Shown here one piece after another: positions 21,065 to 37,164 of a stretch of 37,164 bases of DNA (position 1 is its first letter; each line of letters starts with the position of its first letter). The translations under genes were made by a program, and so were the position numbers. The stretch is taken from NCBI GenBank assembly GCA_029242935.1, contig JAQWSX010000020.1, forward strand, positions 1 through 37,164, written 5' to 3'. The stretch comes from Akkermansiaceae bacterium (GTDB lineage: Bacteria > Verrucomicrobiota > Verrucomicrobiia > Verrucomicrobiales > Akkermansiaceae). Below the pieces are notes generated by a model that was given only the letters and a program-made list of their open reading frames with translations, was not told the DNA's origin and did not search any database.

Positions 21065-21877
21065 CTATTTCTTTGCAAGCCCCGCTTTGTCGGCCTCAAG
21101 AGCCTCCTGCGACTTTTCAAGGGATGCCTTGCTTTGCTCAGCAGCCCAACTTGAAAATGACTTCTGGCTTACAACCTCCATAACTCCACGCATATTAGCA
21201 TGATTCTCACCGCAAAGCTGACCACAGACTACGTAGGTTTCGAGCTCCTTGGTTGGCATGAACCACATCGGAATATCACGTCCAGGAATCGCATCCTGTT
21301 GAATTCGCATTGGAATGATCGAATAATTGTGAATCACATCCGTCGAAGTGACTTGAAGGATGGCATTCCGCTTAACAGGAAGTTTTAGAATCCCAGAGAC
21401 AAAATCATCATAGCCATTTGGATCATCCGGGTCGATACAAGGATCTCCTGGCCTACTGACGAGGGTCCGGTCAATACGGCCAAATTTACCGTCCTCACCA
21501 GGGTAGTGGTAACCAAAACCAAACTGGTAGGCCACGACACGAACACGAGCAGGATCGGTCTGCTGGACTTCTTCAAAATTGTCAGTCCTTTCCCACCAGA
21601 GAGGGAAAGCGAATCCGAGTAAAAGGACAGCTTCAATAATCACCACACCAATCTCCAGATGACTGGAAACATGATTGGTGACCCCATGATAACTGGCCTT
21701 AGAATTCTTCGAGGCCCGGAACTTCCAGAGGCAGAATAAGAAGAAAAGAGTCCACCCTATGAAAAGAGCGAACATGAACCAGTGAACAATATCGATGAGG
21801 TGATCGACATTACCACCGTGATCGGAGTAATTCTCGGGAATCCCGAGCCATTTTGACCAGTTGAGTAAGGTAAACAT
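21065..21877 (-). CDS. coxB: Cytochrome c oxidase subunit II (CuA)
   Basis: Carries the binuclear CuA site that accepts electrons from cytochrome c. The protein has 270 residues. Two membrane helices (about 27-52 and 74-95) anchor a periplasmic cupredoxin domain. CuA ligands are His183 (VIHNYS), Cys218 and Cys222 (CGQLCG), His226 and Met229 (ENHANM). The aromatic electron-entry segment reads VAYQFGFGYHYPGEDGKFG, so the usual tryptophan cluster (QWYW) is missing, a feature I associate with oxidases fed by alternative complex III. The start at 21877 (MFTLLNWSKW) is preferred to 21961. A charged helical tail ends the protein. It is the last oxidase gene of the operon. Confidence 0.95.
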   Translation of the reverse strand: MFTLLNWSKWLGIPENYSDHGGNVDHLIDIVHWFMFALFIGWTLFFLFCLWKFRASKNSKASYHGVTNHVSSHLEIGVVIIEAVLLLGFAFPLWWERTDNFEEVQQTDPARVRVVAYQFGFGYHYPGEDGKFGRIDRTLVSRPGDPCIDPDDPNGYDDFVSGILKLPVKRNAILQVTSTDVIHNYSIIPMRIQQDAIPGRDIPMWFMPTKELETYVVCGQLCGENHANMRGVMEVVSQKSFSSWAAEQSKASLEKSQEALEADKAGLAKK

Positions 21878-21887
21878 GGGTAAAAAA

Positions 21888-22109
21888 TTAGGAATTATTA
21901 GGGGGCGCGACATAATCGTCGCAATACTGAGAATCCAAACCGGCGCGCTCCCGCTTTGCAATCTTCACCATGAACCAGAGGACCATGGTGATGAGGGGGA
22001 CGATTACGAGAAGCATCAGAGCAATCGCCCAACCTGCAGCGTCTTCACCGCCGTGCTTGAAAGCATTCGCGCAGGTTGCACACGCTAGAACTAAGGATGA
22101 TGAAATCAT
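21888..22109 (-). CDS. Small membrane protein of the oxidase operon (73 aa)
   Basis: A 73-residue protein with no family I can name. The N-terminus MISSSLVLACATCANAFKHG looks like a short export signal with two cysteines (C-A-T-C). A short loop and one strong membrane helix (WAIALMLLVIVPLITMVLWFM) follow, then a basic KIAKRERAG segment and a tail with a further cysteine. It sits 10 bp before coxB and 14 bp after the next small gene, so it is co-transcribed with the oxidase. The C-x-x-C could bind copper during CuA assembly, but that is a guess; a small structural subunit is equally possible. Confidence 0.7.
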   Translation of the reverse strand: MISSSLVLACATCANAFKHGGEDAAGWAIALMLLVIVPLITMVLWFMVKIAKRERAGLDSQYCDDYVAPPNNS

Positions 22110-22339: not shown

Positions 22340-22738
22340 TTACTCTTTAGCTCCGCGGCCGTGGACATCCGTCGCAGGCTTGGAAAGGTCGTAGAAGCCA
22401 TCACTGTAGGATTCATTCCCAAACTCAATGGGATCGCTCTTACTCCAACCAATCAACCACATACAGAAAAATGCCATCACTAATCCGAGAGAATAGAAGA
22501 AATAAATCAGCGGGCGCTCGTGGTTCAGGTGCATGAAAATGAGCATCACGAGCGTGGCTTTAAAAGCAGCGATACAAAGGCCAATAGTGGCATCCACTCC
22601 ATCAAACCCGTGGTCGCCAAAGTCTAACCACTCGACCGTCGCCACCATCACTGTAACCACAGTGAAGAAAAACAACAACGTGCCGATAAACATATAGAGC
22701 TTCTTTGCCTTTTTTATTTCTTCGATAGAACCAGCCAT
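22340..22738 (-). CDS. coxD: Cytochrome c oxidase subunit IV (prokaryotic type)
   Basis: A 132-residue inner-membrane protein with three hydrophobic segments: KLYMFIGTLLFFFTVVTVMV, the GLCIAAFKATLVMLIFMHL helix and IYFFYSLGLVMAFFCMWLIG. The KATLVMLIFMHL stretch is the mark of the bacterial subunit IV family (COX4_pro). This subunit helps stabilise the oxidase and is not catalytic. A hydrophilic tail of about 30 residues (DGFYDLSKPATDVHGRG) follows. It lies 40 bp after coxC. Confidence 0.88.
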   Translation of the reverse strand: MAGSIEEIKKAKKLYMFIGTLLFFFTVVTVMVATVEWLDFGDHGFDGVDATIGLCIAAFKATLVMLIFMHLNHERPLIYFFYSLGLVMAFFCMWLIGWSKSDPIEFGNESYSDGFYDLSKPATDVHGRGAKE

Positions 22739-22778: not shown

Positions 22779-24563
22779 TTACATCAAGTAGAGAATCGGG
22801 AAGAGGAAGATCCAGACAAGGTCGACAAAGTGCCAGAAAAGACCGCCCACTTCGACCCGATTCGCCAACCATTCAGGGTTAGATTCATACATCTTGCGTC
22901 CAAAAAACAGGTAGTAGCCTAGGACAAGAGCACCACCAATCACGTGCAGACCATGCAGACCAGTGATCGTGAAGTAGATCGCGTAGTAAGTATTCCACTT
23001 AGGTGTGAAGGTGGACTCAAACCCAACATTGGCTCGCGGAATCTCAAGATGGGGAAACTTACCCTTGTGGATCTTGTGGTTGGCCCCCGCAAACCCATCA
23101 AGGTCGAAAAGCCCAGCCCGTTTCAGGGTCCGAGCTTTGCTCTCTTGGTAAACTTTTTCGACATCGTAATCCAAATCCCGGTAGGCAAGAATCTGATCCC
23201 AATTAACACGATATTTGTCATTGAGAGCCGGAACACGGTCCTTCTTTTCGAGCCGCTCTGTCTCAGCCTTTAGCCACGCCATGTGGCAGTCCCAAATCTT
23301 CTTGAACTCGTTTCGGTCGTCATCGTCGGCGTGGTCGTCATCGTCGGCGTGGTCGTCATCACCATCGTGATGCGCCCTGTGAGTGAGCAACCAGGTTCCT
23401 TCGATAACAGGAAATGGATCAAGCCCCTCTGCTTCAGCCCGCTGAGCAGTCGTCCGAAAATCTAGGGCATCAACACCCATGATCATTGGACTTTTGAGCA
23501 CTTCACCCGACACTAGGGTGTCATCGCGGAGTTTGGCACTTGAGTCACCAACATTCACCTTGTTTACAAGATCAGCGGGCTCGAAAACCAAGGTGAAAGG
23601 AGGGTCGACCTTAAAAGTGACTTCAGAAGGCGCCCGAAGGCTCAGGATCTTAATCTTCTCGGCATCCTCAGCACGACGATCTTTCCAGACCTCTTTTTCG
23701 ACAATGTAGGTGGAGGCTTCTTCCTCACCCTTTTCATTTCGGATCCAATCCCACGAAGCAGCAAGAAACTCTGTCCGGATCTTCCGATCGTGTGAGCGGG
23801 CTTCAAGATAGGCATCCTCGAGTTGGTCGAGTAATTCGATGGTAAGTTCTTCTCCTTCCTTGCGAACGAAAGCCGACTCACTAGCAGTAAGCTGATCTCG
23901 ATTCATCTCCCCTTTGGAAAGCTCCTCTTTATCGATCACTCGGTAAGACTCAGCTAAAGTGATTTTATTGCTGCCAGCTTGCCTGAGAATCTCCTTCACA
24001 TAAGCCTCATGAGTCGGACGTGTCAGGACGAAAGTCAATTCCGACGCTTTTACCAAAACGCGGTTTGCCTTGAAGACTCCATCTTCTTTTTTACGGCCTT
24101 CATCAACCTCAACCATGAGCCCCTTGTCATTCAGCTCAGCATAGTGCAAGTGCCCCTCGACGATAGCGTTATCTTGGACCGGTCCTCCCCCCTGAAGACG
24201 AACCGCCTGGTGACCGAACTTGGCGTTGTACTCGATCCCTTTGAGCACCATGAATAGACCGGCACAAGCAAGTGTAATCGCCATGTAAACCTGAAACTTC
24301 CGCCATTCTCGCATCTTCAAGGCAGCCCATGCGAAGACAACAGTGACGGAAGATCCAATCAGCACGAAGGTGTTGATTAAACCAGGAAGAATAGGAAGGG
24401 CCCGCTCCGGCCATGGATAGTCGGCGTAAAGCCGTAAGAACAAATAGCCCGAGAACAGGCCACCGAACAGGGTGACTTCGGAAGCTAAAAATAGCCAGAT
24501 ACCGACCTTCGAGTTGAAGAGGCCGGTGTCTTTACGGGCGTTGACAATAAATGGAATTTCCAT
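22779..24563 (-). CDS. coxC: Cytochrome c oxidase subunit III with a very large periplasmic insertion
   Basis: Subunit III of the haem-copper oxidase, 594 residues where about 200 is normal for the five-helix type. Helices 1-3 are at about 18-44, 58-83 and 88-112 (KVGIWLFLASEVTLFGGLFS, PGLINTFVLIGSSVTVVFAW, ITLACAGLFMVLKGIEY). Helices 4-5 are at about 525-554 and 575-594 (YFTITGLHGLHVIGG, FWHFVDLVWIFLFPILYLM). Between KGIEY and the TGLHGLH helix, where relatives have a loop of perhaps 20-40 residues, lie about 400 hydrophilic residues (roughly 117-515). Standard topology places this loop in the periplasm. The insert has a histidine/aspartate-rich repeat (about 396-417). The frame is open throughout and the operon spacing is normal, so it is not a misassembly of two genes. 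Confidence 0.93.
   Translation of the reverse strand: MEIPFIVNARKDTGLFNSKVGIWLFLASEVTLFGGLFSGYLFLRLYADYPWPERALPILPGLINTFVLIGSSVTVVFAWAALKMREWRKFQVYMAITLACAGLFMVLKGIEYNAKFGHQAVRLQGGGPVQDNAIVEGHLHYAELNDKGLMVEVDEGRKKEDGVFKANRVLVKASELTFVLTRPTHEAYVKEILRQAGSNKITLAESYRVIDKEELSKGEMNRDQLTASESAFVRKEGEELTIELLDQLEDAYLEARSHDRKIRTEFLAASWDWIRNEKGEEEASTYIVEKEVWKDRRAEDAEKIKILSLRAPSEVTFKVDPPFTLVFEPADLVNKVNVGDSSAKLRDDTLVSGEVLKSPMIMGVDALDFRTTAQRAEAEGLDPFPVIEGTWLLTHRAHHDGDDDHADDDDHADDDDRNEFKKIWDCHMAWLKAETERLEKKDRVPALNDKYRVNWDQILAYRDLDYDVEKVYQESKARTLKRAGLFDLDGFAGANHKIHKGKFPHLEIPRANVGFESTFTPKWNTYYAIYFTITGLHGLHVIGGALVLGYYLFFGRKMYESNPEWLANRVEVGGLFWHFVDLVWIFLFPILYLM
23315..23360 (-). repeat. 18-bp tandem repeat inside coxC
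   Basis: Two and a half copies of an 18-bp unit (plus strand GGTCGTCATCGTCGGCGT at 23315-23332 and 23333-23350, then 10 bp). In the coxC frame it encodes repeats of H-A-D-D-D-D. In-frame 18-bp units can change number without breaking the gene. The product is an acidic, histidine-containing strip. Confidence 0.9.
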
Positions 24564-24599: not shown

Positions 24600-26483
24600 T
24601 TACGAGACCTCGGTCGTTTTCTTTTCAGGTTCCCCCTCGGGCTCTTCAGCAGGGGCATCGCGCTTAGGTTCCTCCCATTGTGGGAAGAAATCAGAATCGT
24701 GGTCGGGGCGGCTGTATTCGTATGGCCCACGATAGATCGCAGGATCAAAAGTAAAGTTACCATGTCCTGGAGGAGTGGGTGTGGCCCACTCAAGAGTGGT
24801 GGCATCCCATGGGTTGTCACTGGTTACCTTTTTGCCCCAAAAGTAACTGATGAACATATTCACAAGAAAAGGCAGCTGAAAAACCGCGAGAGCAATTGCA
24901 GAGCCCGTCATAATCTCGTTAAGCGAAATTTTCTCAGCTACGGTGAGGCCGAAGACGTTAACCCCCTCGGCTCCCTTCTCAATATATCCTTCCCCACCAT
25001 TATACCACCGACGGTGGAACCCAGCCATACCTTGCGTCAGCATTGGGAAGAAGAGAAGATTCATACACACTAGAGAAGGCCAGAAGTGGAGGTGCCCGAG
25101 GAAATTATCCATGAAGCGCCCAGTCATCTTAGGATACCAGTGATAAACACCCGCAAAGAGACCAAAGAGGATTCCAGGAGCCACCACGTAGTGGAAGTGT
25201 CCAATCACGTAATAAGTGTCGTGCAGGTGAAGGTCAGCAAGATTAAAGGCCAATGGTAGACCGGTAAGGCCACCGATACCGAACATTGGGAGGAATGCCG
25301 CAGCCCAAATCATAGGCATCGTAAAGCGAATTGAACCACCCCACAGCGAAATGATCATCGAAGTAAGCAAGATAACAGAAGGCACCGAAATCAAAACCGT
25401 CGTCGTTTGGAAGAAAGTAGAGATCACAGGACCCATTCCGGTAAGATACATGTGGTGCGCCCAAACGATGAAGGACAGGAAACCAAGAACGATTAAGGCC
25501 CAAACCATCGGCTTATATCCCCAGAGAGGCTTGCGAGTGTTGCAAGGAATGATTTCGGCTACGCACGCAATCGCGGGGAGGAGGAGAACGTAAACTTCGG
25601 GGTGGCCTAGGAACCAGAAGAGGTGCTGGAAAAGAAGAGGGCTACCTGATCCCGAGAGATCCATCGCTCCTCCACTCGAAGCAGAGTAAAGACCAGAGGG
25701 CATGAAGAAGCTCGAACCTACGACCCGATCCATCAACTGCATAATCCCTGCGGCCTCGAGAGGCGGGAAAGCAAGCAAGAGAAGGAAACCAGTCACAAGC
25801 ATCGCCCAGACAAAAAATGGGAGACGCATCCAAGTTAGACCCTTTGCGCGAAGTTGAATGATCGTGGTGACAAAATTCACCGAACCGAGGAGCGATGATG
25901 TAATCAACAAGACCAAACCGATTAACCATTGCGTCTGACCTGCGAGAAACTGGTTGACGATCTGTTTGTCGGCATAGCCGGCTAAAGGCGAGTAGTTTGT
26001 CCATCCAGATTTGGCGGCGCCAGATTCCATGAAAAAGCTCATGCACATCACAAGTCCACCAGCAAGATATGCCCAAAAACTGGCCATATTGAGCTTTGGA
26101 AAAGCCATATCCGGCGCACCGATTTGTAGAGGTGTAACGTAGTTTCCAAAGGCCGCAAACCCCAAGGGAACGACCCCAAGGAATACCATAATTGTCCCGT
26201 GCATAGCACCGAACATATTATAAGTCTCTCCGGTAACCTTCCCGTCATCCAACCAGCGAGCTTTCCATCCATCGGTGAACATCCAACTCATGTAACCAGG
26301 AAGTGGCTCATGAGGATAAGCGATGCTCCAACGCATCACGATCATTAAAAAGAACCCAAAAAGTAGGAAGGCACCAGCCGACAGGCCATATTGAATACCA
26401 ATTGTCTTGTGGTCTGTTGAGAAGAAATATTTCTTCCACCAAGGAAGAACGTGGTGGTGATGGTCGTGGGCGTCCGCACTCAT
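24600..26483 (-). CDS. coxA: Cytochrome c oxidase subunit I (aa3-type, K-channel Lys absent)
   Basis: Catalytic subunit that reduces oxygen at a haem a3-CuB centre, 627 residues with about 12 helices. Haem a ligands are His95 and His431, haem a3 ligand His429, CuB ligands His294, His343 and His344, and the cross-linked tyrosine is Tyr298 (GHPEVY). Glu296 and Asp125 (GAPDMAFP) indicate a type A1 D-channel. In the K-channel helix the segment that reads VPTGIKVFSW in Rhodobacter reads VPSVILLTSM here, so the lysine is Leu372. The start at 26483 (MSADAHDHHHH) gives a natural N-terminus. A hydrophilic acidic C-terminal tail of about 75 residues follows the last helix. Confidence 0.96.
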   Translation of the reverse strand: MSADAHDHHHHVLPWWKKYFFSTDHKTIGIQYGLSAGAFLLFGFFLMIVMRWSIAYPHEPLPGYMSWMFTDGWKARWLDDGKVTGETYNMFGAMHGTIMVFLGVVPLGFAAFGNYVTPLQIGAPDMAFPKLNMASFWAYLAGGLVMCMSFFMESGAAKSGWTNYSPLAGYADKQIVNQFLAGQTQWLIGLVLLITSSLLGSVNFVTTIIQLRAKGLTWMRLPFFVWAMLVTGFLLLLAFPPLEAAGIMQLMDRVVGSSFFMPSGLYSASSGGAMDLSGSGSPLLFQHLFWFLGHPEVYVLLLPAIACVAEIIPCNTRKPLWGYKPMVWALIVLGFLSFIVWAHHMYLTGMGPVISTFFQTTTVLISVPSVILLTSMIISLWGGSIRFTMPMIWAAAFLPMFGIGGLTGLPLAFNLADLHLHDTYYVIGHFHYVVAPGILFGLFAGVYHWYPKMTGRFMDNFLGHLHFWPSLVCMNLLFFPMLTQGMAGFHRRWYNGGEGYIEKGAEGVNVFGLTVAEKISLNEIMTGSAIALAVFQLPFLVNMFISYFWGKKVTSDNPWDATTLEWATPTPPGHGNFTFDPAIYRGPYEYSRPDHDSDFFPQWEEPKRDAPAEEPEGEPEKKTTEVS

Positions 26484-26509
26484 GGTAAAATCGATGGTCG
26501 GTGTTAAAA

Positions 26510-27280
26510 TTATTTCTCGGTTGCAATTGGCTCCCAAGTTTCGGGGTCCAACATAGTGTCCGGTGGCAAGATGTCACCGGGAAGCATCTTGTCATGTGAT
26601 TTTTTAAGCTCTTCGGCGCTTGTTTGACTGCCGCCACGCTTCTTGGAAATCTCAAGGGCGTTGGCTGCCATCGATGGAGAGACGATACTTGCATCGTTGC
26701 CCCAAGAAGTGCGGATGTATGTCATCAGGGCAGCAAGCTCCTTGGCGTTCAAATTAGCACCAAATGCACTCATATTCCCGTTGTATTGAGTCCCTGCAAC
26801 CTCGATCTTGCCCGCCACTCCGTTGTGAATGATCATTGAAAGGGCCTCGGTGTTTCCAAGAACCCACTCGGAGCCGGCTAGAGGTGGGAACTGGCCAGTC
26901 TGTCCAAGGCCGCTATTTTGGTGACAAGCCACACAAGCGCCATAGACCTTTTTACCTTCCTTCTGAAACAATGAGAGAGCTGCAATTGGCAGTTTGGGCG
27001 CATCCTGCGGCACCGGAGATGGCGTCCTCATATAGCCCTCCTTGACCAACTCGCTATATCCAAAAAACGAACCACCTTGGCCCATCACTGCTCCGGCAGC
27101 CAGAACCACAATCGCAGAGATTAAGACAAGCCATAGAGAAACAGCTTCCATGCCGTTTTCACGAACTGTTTTTTCCCGACCGGCAGCCAGATCGCCTCTG
27201 AGAGCGCCGTGAGCATCCTTAACGTTGATCGATTCGTCCAAATCTGGACGAAGGTCACTTGATGATGATGGATCAGACAT
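26510..27280 (-). CDS. Membrane-anchored monohaem cytochrome c (CcoP-like)
   Basis: A 256-residue cytochrome. A cytoplasmic N-terminus of about 45 residues precedes one membrane helix (about 46-67, VSLWLVLISAIVVLAAGAVM) and a periplasmic class I cytochrome domain with CVACH (Cys116, Cys119, His120) and a probable axial methionine in GNMSAFG. A charged tail follows. The layout recalls CcoP of cbb3 oxidases, but CcoP has two haems and this has one. It lies 2 bp after the CcoO-like gene and 26 bp before coxA, so it may pass electrons to the CuA site. The call as CcoP-like rests mainly on its neighbours. Confidence 0.85.
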   Translation of the reverse strand: MSDPSSSSDLRPDLDESINVKDAHGALRGDLAAGREKTVRENGMEAVSLWLVLISAIVVLAAGAVMGQGGSFFGYSELVKEGYMRTPSPVPQDAPKLPIAALSLFQKEGKKVYGACVACHQNSGLGQTGQFPPLAGSEWVLGNTEALSMIIHNGVAGKIEVAGTQYNGNMSAFGANLNAKELAALMTYIRTSWGNDASIVSPSMAANALEISKKRGGSQTSAEELKKSHDKMLPGDILPPDTMLDPETWEPIATEK

Positions 27281-27282
27281 GA

Positions 27283-28041
27283 CTATTCTTCGGATTGAGG
27301 GGCCTTTGGATTAAAGTTAAGAGCATCGGGAAGCGGGTTCCCAAGAGTGTCCTTTTTGAGGGAAACCAAATAGCTTGCAAGAGCCCGGGCCCGGTCAGTG
27401 GGCCTAATGCCTATCCCCTCACCGATATCAACTGGCAAGTTACCGTGTCCTGCACCATTCACTTGGACCTCGTCAAACAGGCCAGACTTTGGCGGGCAAG
27501 CTGATTTCCATGCCGTGATAATTTGCGCACCAGTCTCTGGAACCTCATAGCGAGGGACGGCTTTCGGATTATAGAGGTGCATCAAAGACCATTGTTCCGG
27601 AGTCCGACTACTCTTATTAAGCTTAAGATAGTGTTCGAGGCGGCGTCCAAAGTTCGAAAGATCAGGTCCAACTCTAGTTTGACCGATGTGAGCAACATCT
27701 TCCTGCTGGAAGTCTTGGGCGATGGTCTCACGGCGAGTGTCCTCATCCACACTACTGCTCTTCCGAAGCCCGGCCCACTCACCACGGTGGACATCATTCC
27801 CAGCGTAGGTTGGGCGTATGACTTGGGTGTGACAGAGAGCACACCCTTCCTGACCAAAAATTCTGGAGCCCTCTTTAATACGACCATCGCGCTTTGGCAC
27901 GAAAGCCCCGGTAAACTCGGAATTCTTACCATACTCGACAGGGTCAAGACTCCGCATTGTTGAATACGGAACCACCACCAAGAGCAGCCAAGGAATACCA
28001 AAGGTTGCTAGGAGACCGATAATGAACGCTTTAAAAGTCAT
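27283..28041 (-). CDS. CcoO-like cytochrome c subunit, axial Met apparently lost
   Basis: A 252-residue protein with one N-terminal membrane helix (about 5-25) and a periplasmic domain. CcoO traits are SRIFGQEGCALCHTQVIRP (haem motif Cys67, Cys70, His71), TRVGPDLSNFGRR and WSLMHLYNPKAVP. In CcoO the last segment continues into the axial methionine (...PGSxMPxF); here it runs VPRYEVPETGAQI with no methionine. The only other methionines are Met1, one in TMRSL and one in LMHLYN, so the sixth haem ligand is unclear. It lies 21 bp after the CcoN-like gene and 2 bp before the monohaem cytochrome, preserving the N-O-P order of cbb3 operons. Confidence 0.85.
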   Translation of the reverse strand: MTFKAFIIGLLATFGIPWLLLVVVPYSTMRSLDPVEYGKNSEFTGAFVPKRDGRIKEGSRIFGQEGCALCHTQVIRPTYAGNDVHRGEWAGLRKSSSVDEDTRRETIAQDFQQEDVAHIGQTRVGPDLSNFGRRLEHYLKLNKSSRTPEQWSLMHLYNPKAVPRYEVPETGAQIITAWKSACPPKSGLFDEVQVNGAGHGNLPVDIGEGIGIRPTDRARALASYLVSLKKDTLGNPLPDALNFNPKAPQSEE

Positions 28042-28062: not shown

Positions 28063-29550
28063 TTAGGCAGAAGCGGAACTGTAATTATCAACCTCACCCT
28101 CTGGTCCATGCGGGCTAGTCGGGTGATGTGCATCGAGAAGTGTTGGATGTGAAGATCGGCGACCAAGACGAGCCCACATCAGGAGCAAGTGCAGGCAGAA
28201 AAAGAGGTTAGCGAAAAGAAGAAAGGCCCAGGCTAGCGTGACTCCCCAACCGATCTGGCTGGCCCGCTCGGCCATGGTTCCGAAGGGCTGACTGAGGTCC
28301 TCGATTCCCTGACCCTGAGACAGCCCACCCGCAACAGCACAAATAACAACGGAAGAAATACCGTAAAGAGAACAGAAAAAGTGCCACTTGATGAAGCGGC
28401 GAGAAAGCCACTCACGACGGGTGATACGTGGAACGATGAAGTAGATCGCTCCAAAAGCGCAAAGTGAGAACACCCCGTAAAGTCCAAGAACATCGAATCC
28501 ATAGCCGGTGTAGCTGAACTGGGTCAGCTTCAAGGCTGGAACAGTGTGAAGAAAGACAGATAGGGCGCCGAAAACGACAAACAGGACGATTCCAGCAGCA
28601 GTGAACCGAAGAGACGGACTTTCCGCTACAAGCTCGCTATTCCCAATCACAGTTTTAATAATATTGTAACCTACTGCGATCGCCGGAATGAGAATCAAAA
28701 TCATCGAAGCCGCTCCTGCGTATGGAAGGAACTGAGGAATCGGAGCACCGACAAGTTTTTGCATCCCAGCCCATGGTCCGAAGACTGCAAGAGACCAGAA
28801 TCCGAAGAGAGCAATATTGTAACTGTAAACTGGACGCCCCGTCACTTTGGGAGCCAGATAGTATGCACTGCCAAGAGCGACTGGGAGGAAGAAGAGGGTG
28901 AACAAGGTCCCTTTGAACCAAGCTGCTACGCCGGCAATCATCAGCGGATGGCCGTCCATAAGAAAAACAAAAACCCAGGCGGTCACTGCAATCCAAGGAA
29001 ACCATAGAAGACCAGCGAGGAGATACCACTGACTCACATAAACATGACCGGCGTCACGGACCTGAAACTGAATCAGGGACCAAATTGTGATGATGGTATA
29101 GCAAACCAACAAAAGTGGCCAAACTTCGCTTGGAAATTCCATATATGTTACACCCGAACCCTCACCCATCATGATCCGAATAACTCCATATAGGACTACC
29201 GCATTCCAGACATGGGCTGCCCAGAGAATGACCCCAGAGGCAGTGCACTCTTTACGGGAAAGTCTCGCCATCAACCAGATGATGATTCCAAAAGCAGCCT
29301 GCGACCCCCATCCATAAATCATCGCACTCATGTGAGCGGCGTCCACCTTCCCCGCGTCCAGCCATGAAAAGCAGGTCAGGAATTCGGGGTTATGCTTCTT
29401 GGCGGAAGCCACCAGCCCAAGAACGATGGAGAGCACGAGCCAGAGGGCGCCACTCGCGAAGAGAAACATCACAGGATGACGAAGCGATCGATCAATCGAC
29501 GAGCGTAAAACGACGTCCTCGGAATCTGGGGTAGAATTGGTCTCAGCCAT
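28063..29550 (-). CDS. CcoN-like cbb3 oxidase subunit I homologue without active-site histidines
   Basis: A 495-residue protein with about 12 membrane helices, clearly related to CcoN through YYLAPKVTGRPVYSYNIALF, FWSLAVFGPWAG, and GAIYFIVPRITRREW. The ligand positions are altered. The CuB histidine of WYGHNAVGF is Gly214 (AAWFKGTLF). The HH pair after WAGP is Gln264-Lys265. The haem pair in GHVH is Phe352 and Val354 (GYGFDVLG). Only the helix-2 histidine remains (His73, AAHMSAMIYGWG). It therefore cannot hold haem b3 or CuB in the known way and is unlikely to reduce oxygen. It probably acts as a membrane scaffold for the CcoO-like and CcoP-like cytochromes. The C-terminal tail is histidine-rich. 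Confidence 0.9.
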   Translation of the reverse strand: MAETNSTPDSEDVVLRSSIDRSLRHPVMFLFASGALWLVLSIVLGLVASAKKHNPEFLTCFSWLDAGKVDAAHMSAMIYGWGSQAAFGIIIWLMARLSRKECTASGVILWAAHVWNAVVLYGVIRIMMGEGSGVTYMEFPSEVWPLLLVCYTIITIWSLIQFQVRDAGHVYVSQWYLLAGLLWFPWIAVTAWVFVFLMDGHPLMIAGVAAWFKGTLFTLFFLPVALGSAYYLAPKVTGRPVYSYNIALFGFWSLAVFGPWAGMQKLVGAPIPQFLPYAGAASMILILIPAIAVGYNIIKTVIGNSELVAESPSLRFTAAGIVLFVVFGALSVFLHTVPALKLTQFSYTGYGFDVLGLYGVFSLCAFGAIYFIVPRITRREWLSRRFIKWHFFCSLYGISSVVICAVAGGLSQGQGIEDLSQPFGTMAERASQIGWGVTLAWAFLLFANLFFCLHLLLMWARLGRRSSHPTLLDAHHPTSPHGPEGEVDNYSSASA

Positions 29551-29582: not shown

Positions 29583-29906
29583 TTATTCAGCGGGTTTTTC
29601 GGCAGAAGCAGGTGCGGCACTCGGAATCGGCATACTCCCTTTGCTTTCCGTATTCTTATCAAAGGACTTTGCCTGTGCCTGAAGGGCATCAGCGAGAGCT
29701 GCTTCGTTGAGAGCGTCATTCTGGGCACGGTCAATCTCCTCTTTAATCTCGAGCCGGCCTTCACCCACCATCTCATAAGCCTTGTCGGTCTTGTCCGGAG
29801 CAAAAGGCTGAGTGATGATAAGGGCGATTCCGAAGGAAGTCGCCAACAAGATGGCGATCCAGAAGGCGCTGAAGCGTTTGAGAGGATTGTCGCGGGTATG
29901 ATCCAT
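29583..29906 (-). CDS. Single-helix anchored protein between actF and the CcoN-like gene (107 aa)
   Basis: A 107-residue protein starting MDHTRDNPLKRFSAFWIAIL. One membrane helix (about 12-32) is followed by a mainly helical, charged stretch (GRLEIKEEIDRAQNDALNEA) that could form a coiled coil, and then an Ala/Pro-rich tail (PIPSAAPASAEKPAE). The family is not recognised. The start at 29906 lies 5 bp after the actF stop, which argues against the longer frame reaching back into actF. Position suggests an accessory subunit or linker between the Act complex and the cbb3-like module, by inference only. Confidence 0.7.
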   Translation of the reverse strand: MDHTRDNPLKRFSAFWIAILLATSFGIALIITQPFAPDKTDKAYEMVGEGRLEIKEEIDRAQNDALNEAALADALQAQAKSFDKNTESKGSMPIPSAAPASAEKPAE

Positions 29907-29911
29907 GACCT

Positions 29912-31237
29912 TTAGTTGTGAAGATTTGCAGACTCGAGAATACGAGGGTCGCGGTGAGGGTAGAGAGCTGCGGACGTCAGATTCCGAAGATAAATGAACA
30001 GAAAAGCACAAACAGCGATAACAAGAGCAAGAATATCACCCAGCCATGAACCTGAGATCCAAAGTTGAGGATGATCATCAATAACAAGACCGACCGATGG
30101 TCCACGCTCAGGAATGATCATATGATAAACATCCAAGACATGCATAAAGAGGATGTAGAAACAGAAGATCGTCATAAACTTTGAGCTCTTCTTTACGTCC
30201 GAACGGAGAAGCGCCAAGAAAGGAAGCCCGAAGTGCATGAACACGAGAGTCAAACTCAGTAAGTTCCAGTTCTCAGTATTTCGCAGAAGGAAATAACGAG
30301 TCTCCTCCGTGATGTTGGCGTACCAAATCAGGAAGAACTGAGAAAAGGAAACGTAAGCCCAGAACACTGTGAAGGCGAAGCAGAGTTTGCCCATGATGTG
30401 ATAGTGCTCCTGCGTGACTACGTTCTTAAGGTAGCCCATCTTCTGCAGAAAAATCCCTGTCAGGATAAGGACAGCCATTGAGTTCAAAGCCGATCCCGCA
30501 AAGACATAAACTCCAAACATAGTCGAGAACCATGAATAATCGAGAGCCATCACAAAATCGAGCGCAAGAAAAGTCAAGGTCACCCCGAAGATGATCATAC
30601 TCCAGGAGGAGTGCTTGCGGGCTGCGAAGAGATTCTTGGTGCCAGGCTTATCATCGGTGTCCTGGGCGATGGAAAATTTCCGAACAAGCCACATGAAGAA
30701 CCCAAGCCCGATAAAGTAGAAGGCAAAGCGGAGAAGCCAAAAACCGGGATTCAGATAGAAGGTCTTGGCCGCCAAAAGATGATCATGAGCATTTGAGCTG
30801 TGCATCAGGGCTTCGCTCGATCCCATATCAGGGTGGGCATCGGTTGCTTTCTTAAAGGCCGTCATCCATTCCCAAAGATACTGTTGCACATCTGGAAAAA
30901 GAAAAGGGATGTAGAAGACAATGAGGAAGGGAAAAACAAATCCAAGATTCTCCATGAGTCGGCGGACAGATGTCCCCCACCCCGAATTCGAGAGGTTATG
31001 AAGGAAGGTCCAAAAACAACCACCAAGCACGATTGTCGTAATGAAGAATACTGCGAAGAGCCACGAAAATGCATAGCTTCCATGGATTTCACCACTTCCG
31101 GTGCGTAGATAAATCAGACTTGCGAGCAGACCAATTCCACCGATGCCGCCGCAAATCATCTGGAGGGTCGCAATTTTGCCCTTCTCCAGGTGCTCCCCGT
31201 TGATCGGAATGTCTTTTGATGTCACTTGATGTGCCAT
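29912..31237 (-). CDS. actF: Alternative complex III membrane subunit ActF
   Basis: A 441-residue integral membrane protein with about ten helices, annotated in many genomes as quinol:cytochrome c oxidoreductase quinone-binding subunit 2. Recognisable stretches are GGCFWTFLHNLSNSGWGTSV, FYFIGLGFFMWLVRKFS, DYSWFSTMFGVYVFAGS, and CFAFTVFWAYVSFSQFFLIW. ActF is distantly related to ActC but keeps no certain quinone site; it is thought to help form the membrane arm. It lies 24 bp after actE and 5 bp before the 107-aa gene. Confidence 0.93.
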   Translation of the reverse strand: MAHQVTSKDIPINGEHLEKGKIATLQMICGGIGGIGLLASLIYLRTGSGEIHGSYAFSWLFAVFFITTIVLGGCFWTFLHNLSNSGWGTSVRRLMENLGFVFPFLIVFYIPFLFPDVQQYLWEWMTAFKKATDAHPDMGSSEALMHSSNAHDHLLAAKTFYLNPGFWLLRFAFYFIGLGFFMWLVRKFSIAQDTDDKPGTKNLFAARKHSSWSMIIFGVTLTFLALDFVMALDYSWFSTMFGVYVFAGSALNSMAVLILTGIFLQKMGYLKNVVTQEHYHIMGKLCFAFTVFWAYVSFSQFFLIWYANITEETRYFLLRNTENWNLLSLTLVFMHFGLPFLALLRSDVKKSSKFMTIFCFYILFMHVLDVYHMIIPERGPSVGLVIDDHPQLWISGSWLGDILALVIAVCAFLFIYLRNLTSAALYPHRDPRILESANLHN

Positions 31238-31261: not shown

Positions 31262-31882
31262 TTATTTAGCGGAAGCCTGAAGCGCGCGAAGATAGGAAAC
31301 GATGGCCCATCGGTCGCGAACGGGCAGGTTGTGTTTGTAGCCTCCCATAAGGCCCTTGCCGTTTGAAATGACCTCGTAAATATAGCCGTCGGGTGAGGTC
31401 TCCTGAGGAAAGTTATGGAGACTGGGAACTCCGACACCAACTTTCCCAAGATGGTGGGAAACAACGCCCTTTCCGTTACCCGATTTACCGTGACAGATGG
31501 CGCAGTGGACATTGAACATGTCCTCTCCACGTCCCAAAAGCCCGGTCATATCGGCCTCACTCTCGATTCCAAGATCGTTAGGAAGACCGTTCCCGAAGGT
31601 CGCCTCCTTTTTCCCATCGAAGTAATATCCGGCGCGACCAGCTCCAAACTCGACGGGCATCACTCCTGCTTCGGCATTGCGAGGGATGGTTCCCGTGACC
31701 GGTTTACGCGATCCCATGCCATTGGCAAAAAAGGAATCAGCAGTCTGGGCCTTGACCTTATCCTGATCGTCCATATCAGGAAAAACCTGAATGGGCGCCT
31801 GTGAGAATTTGTCGCCACGGAATCGAAACACCCCGACCACGAGGATCGACAGGGCAATGAGAGAGAGAAAAAAGTATTTCAT
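31262..31882 (-). CDS. actE: Alternative complex III monohaem cytochrome ActE
   Basis: A 206-residue membrane-anchored cytochrome c. The N-terminal helix (MKYFFLSLIALSILVVGVF) holds it on the periplasmic side. The ActE hallmark FPDMDDQDKVKAQTADSFF is at residues 34-52. The haem motif is CAICH (Cys127, Cys130, His131) and the axial methionine is probably Met179 (KGLMGGY). It carries electrons from the pentahaem ActA (outside the window) towards the oxidase. No lipobox cysteine is present, so anchoring is by the helix. The gene lies 3 bp after actD. Confidence 0.93.
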   Translation of the reverse strand: MKYFFLSLIALSILVVGVFRFRGDKFSQAPIQVFPDMDDQDKVKAQTADSFFANGMGSRKPVTGTIPRNAEAGVMPVEFGAGRAGYYFDGKKEATFGNGLPNDLGIESEADMTGLLGRGEDMFNVHCAICHGKSGNGKGVVSHHLGKVGVGVPSLHNFPQETSPDGYIYEVISNGKGLMGGYKHNLPVRDRWAIVSYLRALQASAK

Positions 31883-31885
31883 GGT

Positions 31886-32443
31886 TTACTCGGAATCGTC
31901 TTCCACGAGCTCGATATTATCCCCACCAATTTCAGCGAGGAGGGACTTAGTGCTCTCAGCGGAAAACTTAGCGTCACGGGCTTCGATCGCGATAAAGAAC
32001 TTATCATCGGTCACACGTTTAAATTGCTTACTCGCGAAGATCGGATGGTTCCAGCGTGGCAGCCCGATCAGCGCGAGAAGCCCGAAGAGAACCGTGAAAC
32101 CTGAGAAAAGAATGGTGAGTTCGAACATCACCGGGAAGAAGGCCGCCGTGGTGAAGATATTAGCGGGCTTACCCTGCACTACTGTTGGGTAGAGACCAAC
32201 CTGAGTGGTGTAAGCCAAGGCGATCGCGGTGAGGAAACCGGTCAGGCCTCCGAAAAACACAAAGTAAGGAAGGACAGAGCGCTTCACACCCATTGCGTCG
32301 TCCAACCCGTGGACCGGATACGGCGTGTAACAATCCCACTTTTTGAATCCAGCATCCCGGACCTTTTCGGCAGCCTTATAAAGCTGCGAGGCATTTTTGA
32401 ACTCGGCGAGGTAGCCGTAAACTCTGCGGACTTTCGTGCTCAT
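31886..32443 (-). CDS. actD: Alternative complex III subunit ActD (DUF3341)
   Basis: A 185-residue subunit of the DUF3341 family. A cytoplasmic ferredoxin-like part (VYGYLAEFKNASQLYKAAEK ... KKWDCYTPYPVHGLDDAMG) is followed by two membrane helices (LPYFVFFGGLTGFLTAIALA and FPVMFELTILFSGFTVLFGL), then the hallmark LPRWNHPIFASKQFKRVTDD and an acidic end. It has no cofactor; it packs against ActC in the known structures of the complex. Its ATG directly abuts the actC stop, so coupling is likely. Confidence 0.94.
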   Translation of the reverse strand: MSTKVRRVYGYLAEFKNASQLYKAAEKVRDAGFKKWDCYTPYPVHGLDDAMGVKRSVLPYFVFFGGLTGFLTAIALAYTTQVGLYPTVVQGKPANIFTTAAFFPVMFELTILFSGFTVLFGLLALIGLPRWNHPIFASKQFKRVTDDKFFIAIEARDAKFSAESTKSLLAEIGGDNIELVEDDSE

Positions 32444-34003: not shown

Positions 34004-37000
34004 TTAGTGAATGTTGATTGTTGCCTGACCGAGGAATTTCGCGTCGGGCATTTTCTCGTTCGGATTCTTAACACGGGCGAGGTAGCTCGTGCGCGGACGG
34101 GTGTTGACGTATTGGAGCAAGTCGTAGTTACGGTCACTGCCTTGGACTTCCTTGTAGACGTCAGGCCCTTGGATAATCTTAACTGAGTCAAGAACGTTAC
34201 CCTTGGCGCGAACGACCTTGGAGGTGTTATCGAGAAGATTTCCAAAGGAAATCGCGTCGGTCGGACAGGCGTCCTGACAGGCCGTCTTGACGCTGTCGGG
34301 CTTAACACGAAGATCCCTGATACGATCAACCGCAACTTCGTGTGACTTCTTGCCAACCGCGTATTTTTTAACCTTCTGTTGCTGTTTCTGCTTAATCTTG
34401 GCTGACTCGAGACGCTGCACGCAGTAGGTGCACTTCTCCATGACGCCACGCATGCGAACGGTGACATTCGGGTTGCGCTGCTTCGATGGAGCCTCACCAA
34501 CCTGCTTCTCACCGAATGGGCCCTTGTAAAGGTTGCCCTTGATGAGTGGATTACGCTTATTGTAGTCGAAGAAATTGAAGCGACGAGCCTTGTAGGGGCA
34601 GTTATTGGCGCAGTAGCGGGTTCCAATGCAACGGTTGTAAGCCATTGAATTTAAACCTTCTTCGGTATGAACGGTGGCATTAACCGGGCAAACGGTCTCA
34701 CAAGGAGCCATCTCGCACTGAACGCAAGCAACAGGCTGGGGAATTGACTCGGGATTCTGGGTGACCCACTCCGGATTCTCCTTAGAATGATTGACGTGGC
34801 CATGCTCGACCGGATGTTCTTGTGAAGCGAAGTAGCGATCCATACGGATCCAGTGCATTTCACGTCCCATCGCAACCTGACTCTTCCCGACGATCGGAAT
34901 GTTGTTCTCGGCCTGACAAGCAACCAGACAAGCATTACAGCCGGTGCAAGTATTGAGATCGATAGCCATTCCCCACTGGTGAATTTTATCAGCAAGGTGA
35001 GTTTTCTTTGCAAGCTCGGTCTTTGACCAGGTCTCGCTGCCTTCCGGCTTGTAAAGTGAAATATTGTCAGGAGCATGGGAATCCATTCCCTGCTTCTTGA
35101 CGCTCTTCATCTGATTCGCAAAATCTCCTTTGCCTTCCAGTTTGTTGGTCGAAACCTCACGTGCAAGCGCACGACCATACATCGAGTTGTGCTCCTGAGT
35201 GAGCGCAACCGGATACTTTTCTTCCGTGGTCTTTACGACACCGCCAGAAGCAAAGTAAGGAGTTTCGGTGGTCCGAAGTTCATAGGCATTAAAACCAGTG
35301 TTGATCCCTACGTATCCAACAACCGGCTTAGATTTATCAGACTTAACCGCGCCCCCTCGACCATCATCAGCAGCCTGACCATAGCCAACTGGGAGAGTAA
35401 TCGCATTATCGGCATGACCGTAGGCAATGAGAACCGGCACGCGAATTTCGCGGCCGTTGACAGTAAGATCGATCATGGGCGAGTGATTCCCCTCGCCTTC
35501 CCCAGTTTCGTAGCGTTTTGAAACCTTCACCTCCGTACCGATGCGCATCAGTGAGGTTTTCGGCTCGAGAGCAATGACTCGCTCATAAACACCGAGCTCT
35601 TTCGCGGTCACGGGCGAAATCTGCGCGGCATTATCCCACGTCAACTTGGTGACGGGATCTGGAGACTCCTGAAGCCAGGCGTTATCAATGAAGCGGCCGT
35701 CAAGAATCGAAGCATCGGTGGCGAAAACAACTTCCAAGGCATTCGGAGAGGGTTCCGGAGCGAGCTTGATCTCGGGAAGAACCGCATTGAGTTCGCCAGC
35801 TTTGTATGAAGTGCCTTCAACGAAGCCGTTTGTGAGAGCATTCCGCCAAGAATCGTCATCTGCCTTTCCGGTCATCTCAGCCAAAGTCGCCTTGACCTCG
35901 CCCATCGCAGGAAAGAACTCGCCCTGTGGAAGATCTCCCCCACCAAGAAGATGTAAAAGGTCCAGCTCGGAAAGCCCGCCATAAAGTGGCAGGATCATGG
36001 GCTGAATGAGAGAAATCACACCGGTCTGGGATCGGGCATCCCCCCAACTCTCAAGGTAGTGAGCAGCAGGGACGTGCCAATCACAAGCCCATGCTGTCGC
36101 ATCAGTGCGGAGGCCCCAATGGACCGAAGCCTTCGCTTTGCCAAGAACCTCGGCAAAGCCGTCGGCGTCGAACACAGGATTGGAAGGAGTGAGGAAAATG
36201 ACATTCTCGATCGCGCCACTGTCAAGCGCACCTGTGAGATCGGCAAGTGATCCGTATTGCCCTAGCTCAGTCTGAACCGCACGAATTGCGGTTGAACCTA
36301 GCTTAGCATTTAAAGCAGCAGCAATTTGTTTCACGGCCTTGCTTTGGCGCGATCCGGCAAGAACCAGAGCACTAGCTCCAGCATTTTTTAGGTCCGCCGC
36401 ACATTCCTTGACCCAACTATCAAATTCAGCAATTGCGTTTTCCGCGCCGGGAAAAAGAGCCTCCTTATCCTTATCGCCAGGGTTGTAGCTTCCAACTCCA
36501 AGCGCGGAAGCAATTGCACCAGCCACGGCTTCAACACGGCTTGGAGCGACGCGGAGACGATGGTCTGCCATCCCTCCAGTCAGGCTGAACTGAGTCTCCA
36601 CCTGATAGAGGCGGTTCATCTTGTCAGCGTCTACATCGCGTTCTTGGTCGTAATTTTCGTTTCCACCCTGCCGCTTTTTGGAAAAAGCCTTGGAATTTCC
36701 AGTAAGATCGGTCCCAAGAAAGTCACAATCAAGAGAAAGAATACGAGTCGCCTTCTCGAAATCAACAACCTGTGAAACTCCGGCAGCAAGAGGCTCGCCC
36801 GAGGTCGCCTCGTAAGTAATAAGGGTCACTCCCTTGCTAGCCAAAACTTTGGCAAGTCGATTACGGGTGGGCGAATCATCATTGCCAAAAACCAAGGCGG
36901 TCTTGGCAAGTTCAAGAGATTGAAGTGAAGACTTAAGCTCACTCTTCGTAGCCTCTTTTCCGTCTTTCAGGATCTTACGGGAACGTGAGGGAGAGTAGAG

Positions 37001-37164
37001 ATCAAGAACCGAGTCCTGAGTCTGGGCGCAAGTCCCTGAAGCATCCGGGTGATCATGGTTGGGCTCACGTTTGGTCGGACGACCTTCGTAAGTCGTTACT
37101 ACCAAAGGAACTGCTCCAGTTGCCGATGGGCGCGTGATCGCATAGAAAAGCGGCGTGCCAGGGA
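34004..37164 (-). CDS. actB: Alternative complex III subunit ActB, molybdopterin-like and iron-sulphur fusion (N-terminus outside window)
   Basis: About 1,050 residues are visible; the frame runs off the window edge (PGTPLFYAITRPSATG is the first readable part), so the start is not here. The N-terminal two thirds resembles molybdopterin oxidoreductases (YEGRPTKREPNHDHPDASG, ARSQTGVISLIQP), but ActB is known to carry no molybdenum. The last third is a ferredoxin-like domain with four cysteine groups. These are CTGCNACLVAC, CVQCEMAPCETVCP, CIGTRYCANNCP, and CTYC with ACQDACP. The third group lacks one cysteine in the way expected for the [3Fe-4S] cluster. It takes electrons from quinol at ActC. 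actA would be expected just upstream. Confidence 0.96.
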   Translation of the reverse strand, partial: PGTPLFYAITRPSATGAVPLVVTTYEGRPTKREPNHDHPDASGTCAQTQDSVLDLYSPSRSRKILKDGKEATKSELKSSLQSLELAKTALVFGNDDSPTRNRLAKVLASKGVTLITYEATSGEPLAAGVSQVVDFEKATRILSLDCDFLGTDLTGNSKAFSKKRQGGNENYDQERDVDADKMNRLYQVETQFSLTGGMADHRLRVAPSRVEAVAGAIASALGVGSYNPGDKDKEALFPGAENAIAEFDSWVKECAADLKNAGASALVLAGSRQSKAVKQIAAALNAKLGSTAIRAVQTELGQYGSLADLTGALDSGAIENVIFLTPSNPVFDADGFAEVLGKAKASVHWGLRTDATAWACDWHVPAAHYLESWGDARSQTGVISLIQPMILPLYGGLSELDLLHLLGGGDLPQGEFFPAMGEVKATLAEMTGKADDDSWRNALTNGFVEGTSYKAGELNAVLPEIKLAPEPSPNALEVVFATDASILDGRFIDNAWLQESPDPVTKLTWDNAAQISPVTAKELGVYERVIALEPKTSLMRIGTEVKVSKRYETGEGEGNHSPMIDLTVNGREIRVPVLIAYGHADNAITLPVGYGQAADDGRGGAVKSDKSKPVVGYVGINTGFNAYELRTTETPYFASGGVVKTTEEKYPVALTQEHNSMYGRALAREVSTNKLEGKGDFANQMKSVKKQGMDSHAPDNISLYKPEGSETWSKTELAKKTHLADKIHQWGMAIDLNTCTGCNACLVACQAENNIPIVGKSQVAMGREMHWIRMDRYFASQEHPVEHGHVNHSKENPEWVTQNPESIPQPVACVQCEMAPCETVCPVNATVHTEEGLNSMAYNRCIGTRYCANNCPYKARRFNFFDYNKRNPLIKGNLYKGPFGEKQVGEAPSKQRNPNVTVRMRGVMEKCTYCVQRLESAKIKQKQQQKVKKYAVGKKSHEVAVDRIRDLRVKPDSVKTACQDACPTDAISFGNLLDNTSKVVRAKGNVLDSVKIIQGPDVYKEVQGSDRNYDLLQYVNTRPRTSYLARVKNPNEKMPDAKFLGQATINIH

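Follow-up and report, generated by a model that had tools for sequence, protein, structure and literature searches.

A CcoN homologue stripped of its metal ligands in an ACIII-aa3 operon, and its possible role as holder of a haem c bridge

The window, by which we mean the whole stretch of DNA analyzed (37,164 nucleotides from an Akkermansiaceae bacterium, contig JAQWSX010000020.1), encodes an ACIII-aa3 operon in which a homologue of CcoN has lost all CuB and high-spin haem ligands. We consider it fairly probable (about 0.6) that the CcoN of an ancestral ACIII-cbb3 system was gutted in place and that the dead protein holds CcoO and a c552-like cytochrome as a bridge from ACIII to CuA. The inferred part of this explanation comprises the membrane folding of the empty CcoN, its holder role and the electron path. 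The genes of the operon are as follows.

34004..37105, minus strand: ActB, labelled from position and conservation; reaches near the contig end
32444..33973, minus strand: ActC, NrfD family (Pfam, synteny)
31886..32443, minus strand: ActD, labelled from position; PF11821 occurs once in the window's genome, place not listed
31262..31882, minus strand: ActE, monohaem cytochrome c (Pfam, motif)
29912..31237, minus strand: ActF, labelled from position and conservation; no Pfam match
29583..29906, minus strand: small protein with one hydrophobic stretch, between ActF and the CcoN-like protein; start codon chosen by eye; no Pfam or NCBIfam match
28063..29550, minus strand: CcoN-like protein without metal ligands, 495 aa, coordinates including the stop codon (profile, alignment, model)
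27283..28041, minus strand: CcoO-like monohaem cytochrome c with CALCH at residue 67; its Pfam FixO score of 26.2 bits falls short of the 29.6 cut-off
26510..27280, minus strand: membrane-anchored monohaem cytochrome c at the CcoP position, CVACH at residue 116 (profile, motif)
24600..26537, minus strand: CoxA, A-type oxidase subunit I, His motifs kept (Pfam/NCBIfam, motif reading)
22779..24563, minus strand: CoxC, subunit III, with a long insertion (Pfam/NCBIfam)
22340..22738, minus strand: CoxD-like small membrane protein, labelled from position and conservation
21065..21961, minus strand: CoxB, subunit II, CuA motif kept, without a cytochrome c domain (Pfam/NCBIfam, motif reading)

ActB, C, D, E and F stand in the order of an ACIII operon, and ActA is not on the contig, which ends just beyond ActB. 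The genome (completeness 85.5%) encodes two COX1 proteins, the CcoN-like protein and CoxA. The neighbor of the CcoN-like protein belongs to the CcoO family by homology and by its single haem c motif: a profile of 31 rows matched CcoO of the PDB at about 1e-18, and CXXCH was present in 31/31 rows, the Pfam FixO score lying just under its cut-off. Because its structural model was poor (pLDDT 72) and found no Foldseek match at E<=0.001, its identity rests on sequence. The third protein is not a dihaem CcoP. It has one CXXCH and is nearest to c552-like domains, the closest solved relatives of its family being the haem domains tethered to copper nitrite reductase and Thermus cytochrome c552. CoxC measures 594 aa in the window, where the insertion in the middle of subunit III holds an acidic, His-rich stretch; it is also long in relatives of the order (1365-1728 bp), and methanotroph copies have 277-295 aa.

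The open reading frame at 28063-29550 contains no internal stop, and its product matched Pfam COX1 at 7.8e-37. All five solved chains that it matched well by sequence (phmmer) were cbb3 subunit I, and HHalign of 31 homologues from the order against seven fused CcoN of related genomes gave 99.9% and 2.5e-32. An AlphaFold model built from 48 rows (pLDDT 87.3, pTM 0.89) retrieved seven cbb3 CcoN chains as the top hits of a PDB structure search (TM 0.82-0.85 by query and 0.87-0.91 by target, 18-22% identity), with nitric oxide reductases next. By both fold and sequence homology, the protein is a true CcoN homologue. It shares with the CcoN of P. stutzeri cbb3 (3mk7) its fold (3mk7_A, TM 0.85 by query and 0.90 by target, 20% identity) and a CcoO as neighbor. 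However, it lacks all CuB ligands, the high-spin ligand, one low-spin ligand and the conserved tyrosine, and its partner cytochrome is monohaem and c552-like, whereas cbb3 has a dihaem CcoP. With 97.2 bits, it fell short of the NCBIfam ccoN equivalog cut-off of 583.15. As a control, four intact ACIII-linked CcoN also scored below this value (236-273 bits), while two fused cbb3 CcoN passed it (625-630 bits). The cut-off does not separate gutted from intact copies and, since ACIII-linked CcoN with all ligands reach only 236-273 bits, the shortfall of the window protein is not itself due to ligand loss. The all-ligand ACIII-linked proteins of L158, L117, L222 and L235 form a divergent C-type group (236-273 of 583 bits).

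The codons at the ligand positions, assigned from alignments, are the following.

29332..29334, minus strand: His73, the sole haem ligand kept, opposite the first low-spin haem b His
28909..28911, minus strand: Gly214, at the first CuB His
28756..28761, minus strand: Gln264-Lys265, at the CuB HH pair
28489..28497, minus strand: Phe352 at the high-spin haem His and Val354 at the second low-spin His

The ligand columns were concordant among phmmer, MAFFT and HHalign. In place of the three CuB histidines of CcoN, the protein has Gly214, Gln264 and Lys265; Phe352 and Val354 replace the high-spin His and one member of the low-spin pair, and Gly258 lies opposite the conserved active-site tyrosine. 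We rejected the idea that other histidines had taken over these roles, as no other His of the window protein fell into any ligand column of the 31-row alignments. His390, present in 30/31 rows, is the His of the HFW motif, which true CcoN also has. The earlier note on this DNA had described a CcoN homologue retaining only His73 and had read Gly214, Gln264-Lys265, Phe352 and Val354 at the remaining positions. The HHalign result, the modelled structure and the alignments bear out the homology, the solitary histidine opposite the first low-spin haem b His and every residue number.

We then considered whether the window copy could be a lone mutant or an assembly error. The protein found a match in 55/58 relatives, fused cbb3 copies included, and all ACIII-linked copies read in the order were gutted (48/48, including the window's own and two fragments); it is in distant homologues that the ligands are kept. 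Both ideas were thus rejected. None of the four catalytic His was kept in 42 of these copies, one was kept in 5 and two in 1, and a single copy (L047) retains the low-spin His pair. The copies of the order are full-length or nearly so, apart from the two fragments, L025 and L044, and none of the order matches listed has an internal stop. A few CcoN matches outside the order show one internal stop. The 20 loci L031-L050 share the arrangement ActB-C-D-E-F, CcoN, CcoO, cytochrome c, CoxA-C-D-B, except that L037 and L044 are truncated by contig ends, that L047 begins at one and lacks a visible aa3, and that ActB-D were undetected in L031 and L035. L046 has an additional cytochrome c gene of 885 bp between ActF and CcoN, whose product is 37% identical to the c552-like protein. 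Within the genus, dN/dS of the window copy against seven congeners was 0.031-0.061. This synteny and constraint confirm the view that the protein is conserved as part of an ACIII-aa3 operon.

His73 was kept in 41/48 rows of the order, which would suit a new cofactor or reaction, in which the emptied pocket might bind a quinone, for example, or a single haem held by His73 together with a second residue. A soil clade keeping both low-spin His (see below) points the same way. However, no alternative set of ligands is conserved, His73 is absent from five of the 31 alignment rows, and the residues at the old ligand sites differ among lineages. We therefore regard this possibility as improbable.

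The slot ActF-CcoN-CcoO-cytochrome was found across the class, where CcoN was matched at E<=1e-55 in 277/384 genomes, and in many other families of the class the protein occupying it keeps all six His and the tyrosine. Such intact copies account for 28/78 operons of our tree and for 31/69 genomes tallied. A scan of named genome contigs, covering the best 80 of 568 relatives, gave all six His in 58, two otherwise altered copies (L246, L261) and 20 half-gutted ones, in which the CuB and high-spin ligands are lost and both low-spin His are kept (19 HNQRYH, 1 HNTRYH). These 20 contigs are titled Chthoniobacterales, Spartobacteria or Verrucomicrobia MAGs. Soil MAG loci with the HNQRYH pattern include L098, L150, L224, L226 and L231-L234. 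CcoN with all ligands stands beside Act genes in Geminisphaera colitermitum TAV2, Verrucomicrobia bacterium IMCC26134 and Planctomycetes bacterium Pan216, among others; Zavarzinella formosa has an intact CcoN-CcoO-cytochrome set in a locus that showed no Act gene. Only one CuB His is missing from L161 and two are missing from L246, and both are possibly early steps of gutting. In G058 (99% complete) and G337 (94%), no COX1 other than the intact ACIII-linked CcoN was found, and it is for this reason that we take it to be probably the terminal haem-copper oxidase there. A second kind of CcoN (550-634 aa, all His, motifs GTHHF and AHSH) occurs in L104 and L106 (G074, G154) with a long CcoO beside it and away from act genes. 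Outside the window's class, L091-L094, L126-L128 and L130 encode CcoN of 457-517 aa with all His (GAHH, HAH), next to a short CcoO and a cytochrome-like protein of 590-614 aa.

Because this slot is filled by homologues with all ligands in many families elsewhere in the class, the best explanation of these comparisons is that an ancestral ACIII-linked C-type (cbb3) oxidase lost its active site in place, repeatedly, and was not recruited. This departs from the earlier note, which had proposed a recruited scaffold. A tree of ActC and ActB, made with a quick method, covered 49 gutted operons, 28 intact ones and 1 partial one, 78 in all. With loss taken as irreversible, the gutted operons form 15 groups on it, a number that did not change when branches under 90 were collapsed. 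Unordered parsimony, which cannot tell loss from regain by gene replacement, gave 14 changes, and 12 independent pairs stood on supported branches. For L125, L101, L163 and L183, the operon nearest by ActC also has the nearest intact CcoN, alone or in a tie, a pattern that loss in place would predict. For several other gutted copies, the nearest intact CcoN is 27-40% identical and little informative.

Ligand loss was accompanied by fast divergence. At 70-75% ActC identity, CcoN pairs average 39.5% identity when gutted vs 61.3% when intact, and two gutted-intact sister pairs whose ActC are 93-94% identical have CcoN of only 60% and 48% identity. Values of dN/dS were 0.031-0.10 in the window's genus, L031-L035, L156-L157 and L232-L236, and 0.34-0.84 in some gutted pairs of family f9. 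After gutting, the protein is thus tightly constrained in the window's group but only loosely in some others, in which erosion of the module may be under way. Arranged by aa3 adjacency, dN/dS showed no clean split, with dS near saturation in many pairs; the median CcoN/ActC ratio was 2.20 with aa3, 1.38 without and 1.49 in intact pairs. The f9 values and the burst of divergence after ligand loss are what one would expect if the redundant CcoN were a drifting passenger on its way out, staying in the operon since its loss is slow or polar. Moreover, all loci used for retention counts were picked by a CcoN match, so that any lineage from which the gutted gene had since been deleted would escape notice. 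Nevertheless, the low dN/dS in the window's genus, the near full length and lack of internal stops among the order matches listed, and the persistence of the gene across the whole order and after each of the 14-15 losses on the tree make such a passenger quite unlikely.

To return to loss in place followed by a holder role, the empty CcoN would still fold in the membrane, keeping CcoO and the c552-like cytochrome in place between ACIII and aa3. Electrons would pass from ActA/ActE to the haem c of CcoO, then to the haem c of the c552-like protein, CuA and haem a, with none entering CcoN. Once aa3 had become the acceptor, CcoN would have needed its docking surfaces only; the CuB and high-spin ligands could then be lost, the low-spin pair outliving them in some lineages (HNQRYH, soil MAGs). 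A scaffold or adaptor role of the CcoN-like protein fits the context of its genes, and the repeated loss of ligands suggests an empty shell that now holds an electron wire together.

In agreement with this, the haem c motifs of the neighbors were kept (counts after dropping five identical loci). CcoO, where found, retained CXXCH in 56/56 gutted and 19/19 half-gutted loci, and the cytochrome at the CcoP position did so in 55/56 and 13/13, the one miss (L261) being a piece of 118 aa. A different proposal would be that the gutted CcoN is structural or serves in assembly only, stabilizing ACIII or helping to build aa3, while electrons go directly from ActE to CuA and do not mainly cross CcoO and the cytochrome. 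The fast divergence of gutted copies fits such loose demands, and in Acetobacter a COX1-like protein without metal-binding residues, kept beside CtaB, was read as probably structural in the part of the source seen (PMC10715153). However, haem c would be superfluous in a purely structural unit, and CXXCH is kept almost without exception in both cytochromes. We consider the structural proposal unlikely, although less so than the other alternatives. The Acetobacter protein resembles the window's in being a haem-copper subunit I homologue that is kept without metal ligands; it differs in its partner CtaB, and the two were compared by description only (PMC10715153).

CoxB of CcoN loci lacked CXXCH in 51/51 cases (34 gutted, 13 intact, 3 half-gutted, 1 partial), whereas CoxB of CcoN-less ACIII-aa3 operons had it in 5/5. 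ActA, where found upstream of ActB, had five CXXCH in 78/83 cases and never six. In the parts of the sources seen, electrons enter through the cytochrome c domain of caa3 in R. marinus, and in F. johnsoniae this domain appears to be replaced by an additional cytochrome domain of ActA (PMC5928083). The window's operon is like ACIII-caa3 of Rhodothermus and ACIII-aa3 of Flavobacterium in having ACIII genes beside an A-type oxidase and a putative bridging haem c (as described in PMC5928083 and PMC8552683). However, in those two systems the bridging cytochrome domain belongs to CoxB or ActA, and here the bridge would be CcoO and the c552-like protein on a dead CcoN. Since the known ACIII-aa3 partners bridge through a cytochrome fused to CoxB or ActA, and this is absent here, CcoO and the c552-like protein are the likely bridge. 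Speaking against the bridge, CoxB beside intact CcoN likewise has no cytochrome domain (13/13). The lack of this domain thus predates gutting and by itself is no proof of a bridge.

ActD was found in 322/384 genomes of the class vs 277/384 for CcoN at the threshold given above. An obligate link of CcoN with every ACIII was rejected, as ACIII loci without CcoN exist. Among seven loci from this gap, L269-L271 and L275 have a very divergent gutted CcoN scoring below E<=1e-55, L272 and L273 have ACIII with a cytochrome-bearing CoxB and no CcoN, and L274 is incomplete; L276-L278 lack CcoN and represent a second copy of ACIII, their genomes having the CcoN type as well. The CcoN of L269-L271 (genus g212) and L275 measure 534-566 aa and still lie between ActF and CcoO; the genomes of g212 are small. 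G541, G461 and G364 carry both ACIII types, the CcoN-less one with the cytochrome c motif in CoxB.

We also analyzed the association of gutting with an A-type oxidase. Such an oxidase was encoded in 37/37 genomes with gutted vs 24/31 with intact CcoN (Fisher p 0.0027). After tree correction, neither this association (about 3.4 to 0 pairs, median p 0.25) nor that with an aa3 in the same locus was significant. Gutting caused by an aa3 of the same operon is thus unsupported, and intact copies (L099, L164, L165, L168, L182) precede aa3 as well. In 18/49 gutted tree operons, no aa3 was seen beside CcoN, yet an A-type oxidase is present somewhere in all 37 tallied genomes with a gutted copy, as might be expected if the CcoNO-cytochrome unit served soluble acceptors or other oxidases and not the adjacent aa3. 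In the window's order, however, aa3 follows in 18/20 loci; L044 is cut by the contig end, and in L047, cut by the contig start, no aa3 was found in about 8 kb downstream. We hold this last alternative to be the least probable of all.

For methanotrophs and Opitutaceae, an operon in which a C-type oxidase follows ACIII goes back to Refojo 2010, as cited in the part of PMC8498564 seen. It is of the same type as the operons analyzed here. However, it is described there as an oxidase, whereas the window's CcoN is ligandless, as are those of 10 genomes of family f8, the methanotrophs. In the parts of the articles covered, verrucomicrobial methanotrophs are credited with a cbb3 oxidase from ACIII-linked genes (PMC6688271, PMC8498564, PMC10205796, PMC11102522), which is tied to high oxygen affinity (PMC6688271). 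AMO/pmoA-type genes were present in 8/8 f8 genomes tested, and in 13 f8 genomes nothing scored above 45.7 bits against ccoN (controls: 236-273 for intact ACIII-linked, 625-630 for fused). The ACIII-linked CcoN, read in 10 genomes (7 of the 8 pmoA-tested and 3 more), was missing five of the six His in 10/10. Assuming that the published genes are those read here, the ACIII-linked "cbb3 oxidase" of the methanotrophs would also be gutted.

Among open-access papers, covered by title, opening of the abstract and selected passages, we found no description of a ligandless CcoN in an ACIII operon. There is, in our estimate, an even chance that these operons represent a new architecture, in which a dead cbb3 module serves as a haem c wire joining ACIII and aa3, that it evolved at least 14 times in parallel from working ACIII-cbb3 oxidases, and that the methanotroph ACIII-linked "cbb3 oxidase" does not reduce O2. 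The copies form a natural series in one operon slot with independent replicates, from all ligands through the loss of one or two CuB His and the half-gutted state to the empty shell. This makes testable a long-standing question, namely, what an oxidase subunit contributes to a respiratory supercomplex apart from catalysis. The series also bears on the annotation of the verrucomicrobial methanotroph cbb3 oxidase. The f8 loci whose CcoN is missing five of the six His are L095-L097, L280, L281, L283, L289, L292, L293, L299, L300 and L308.
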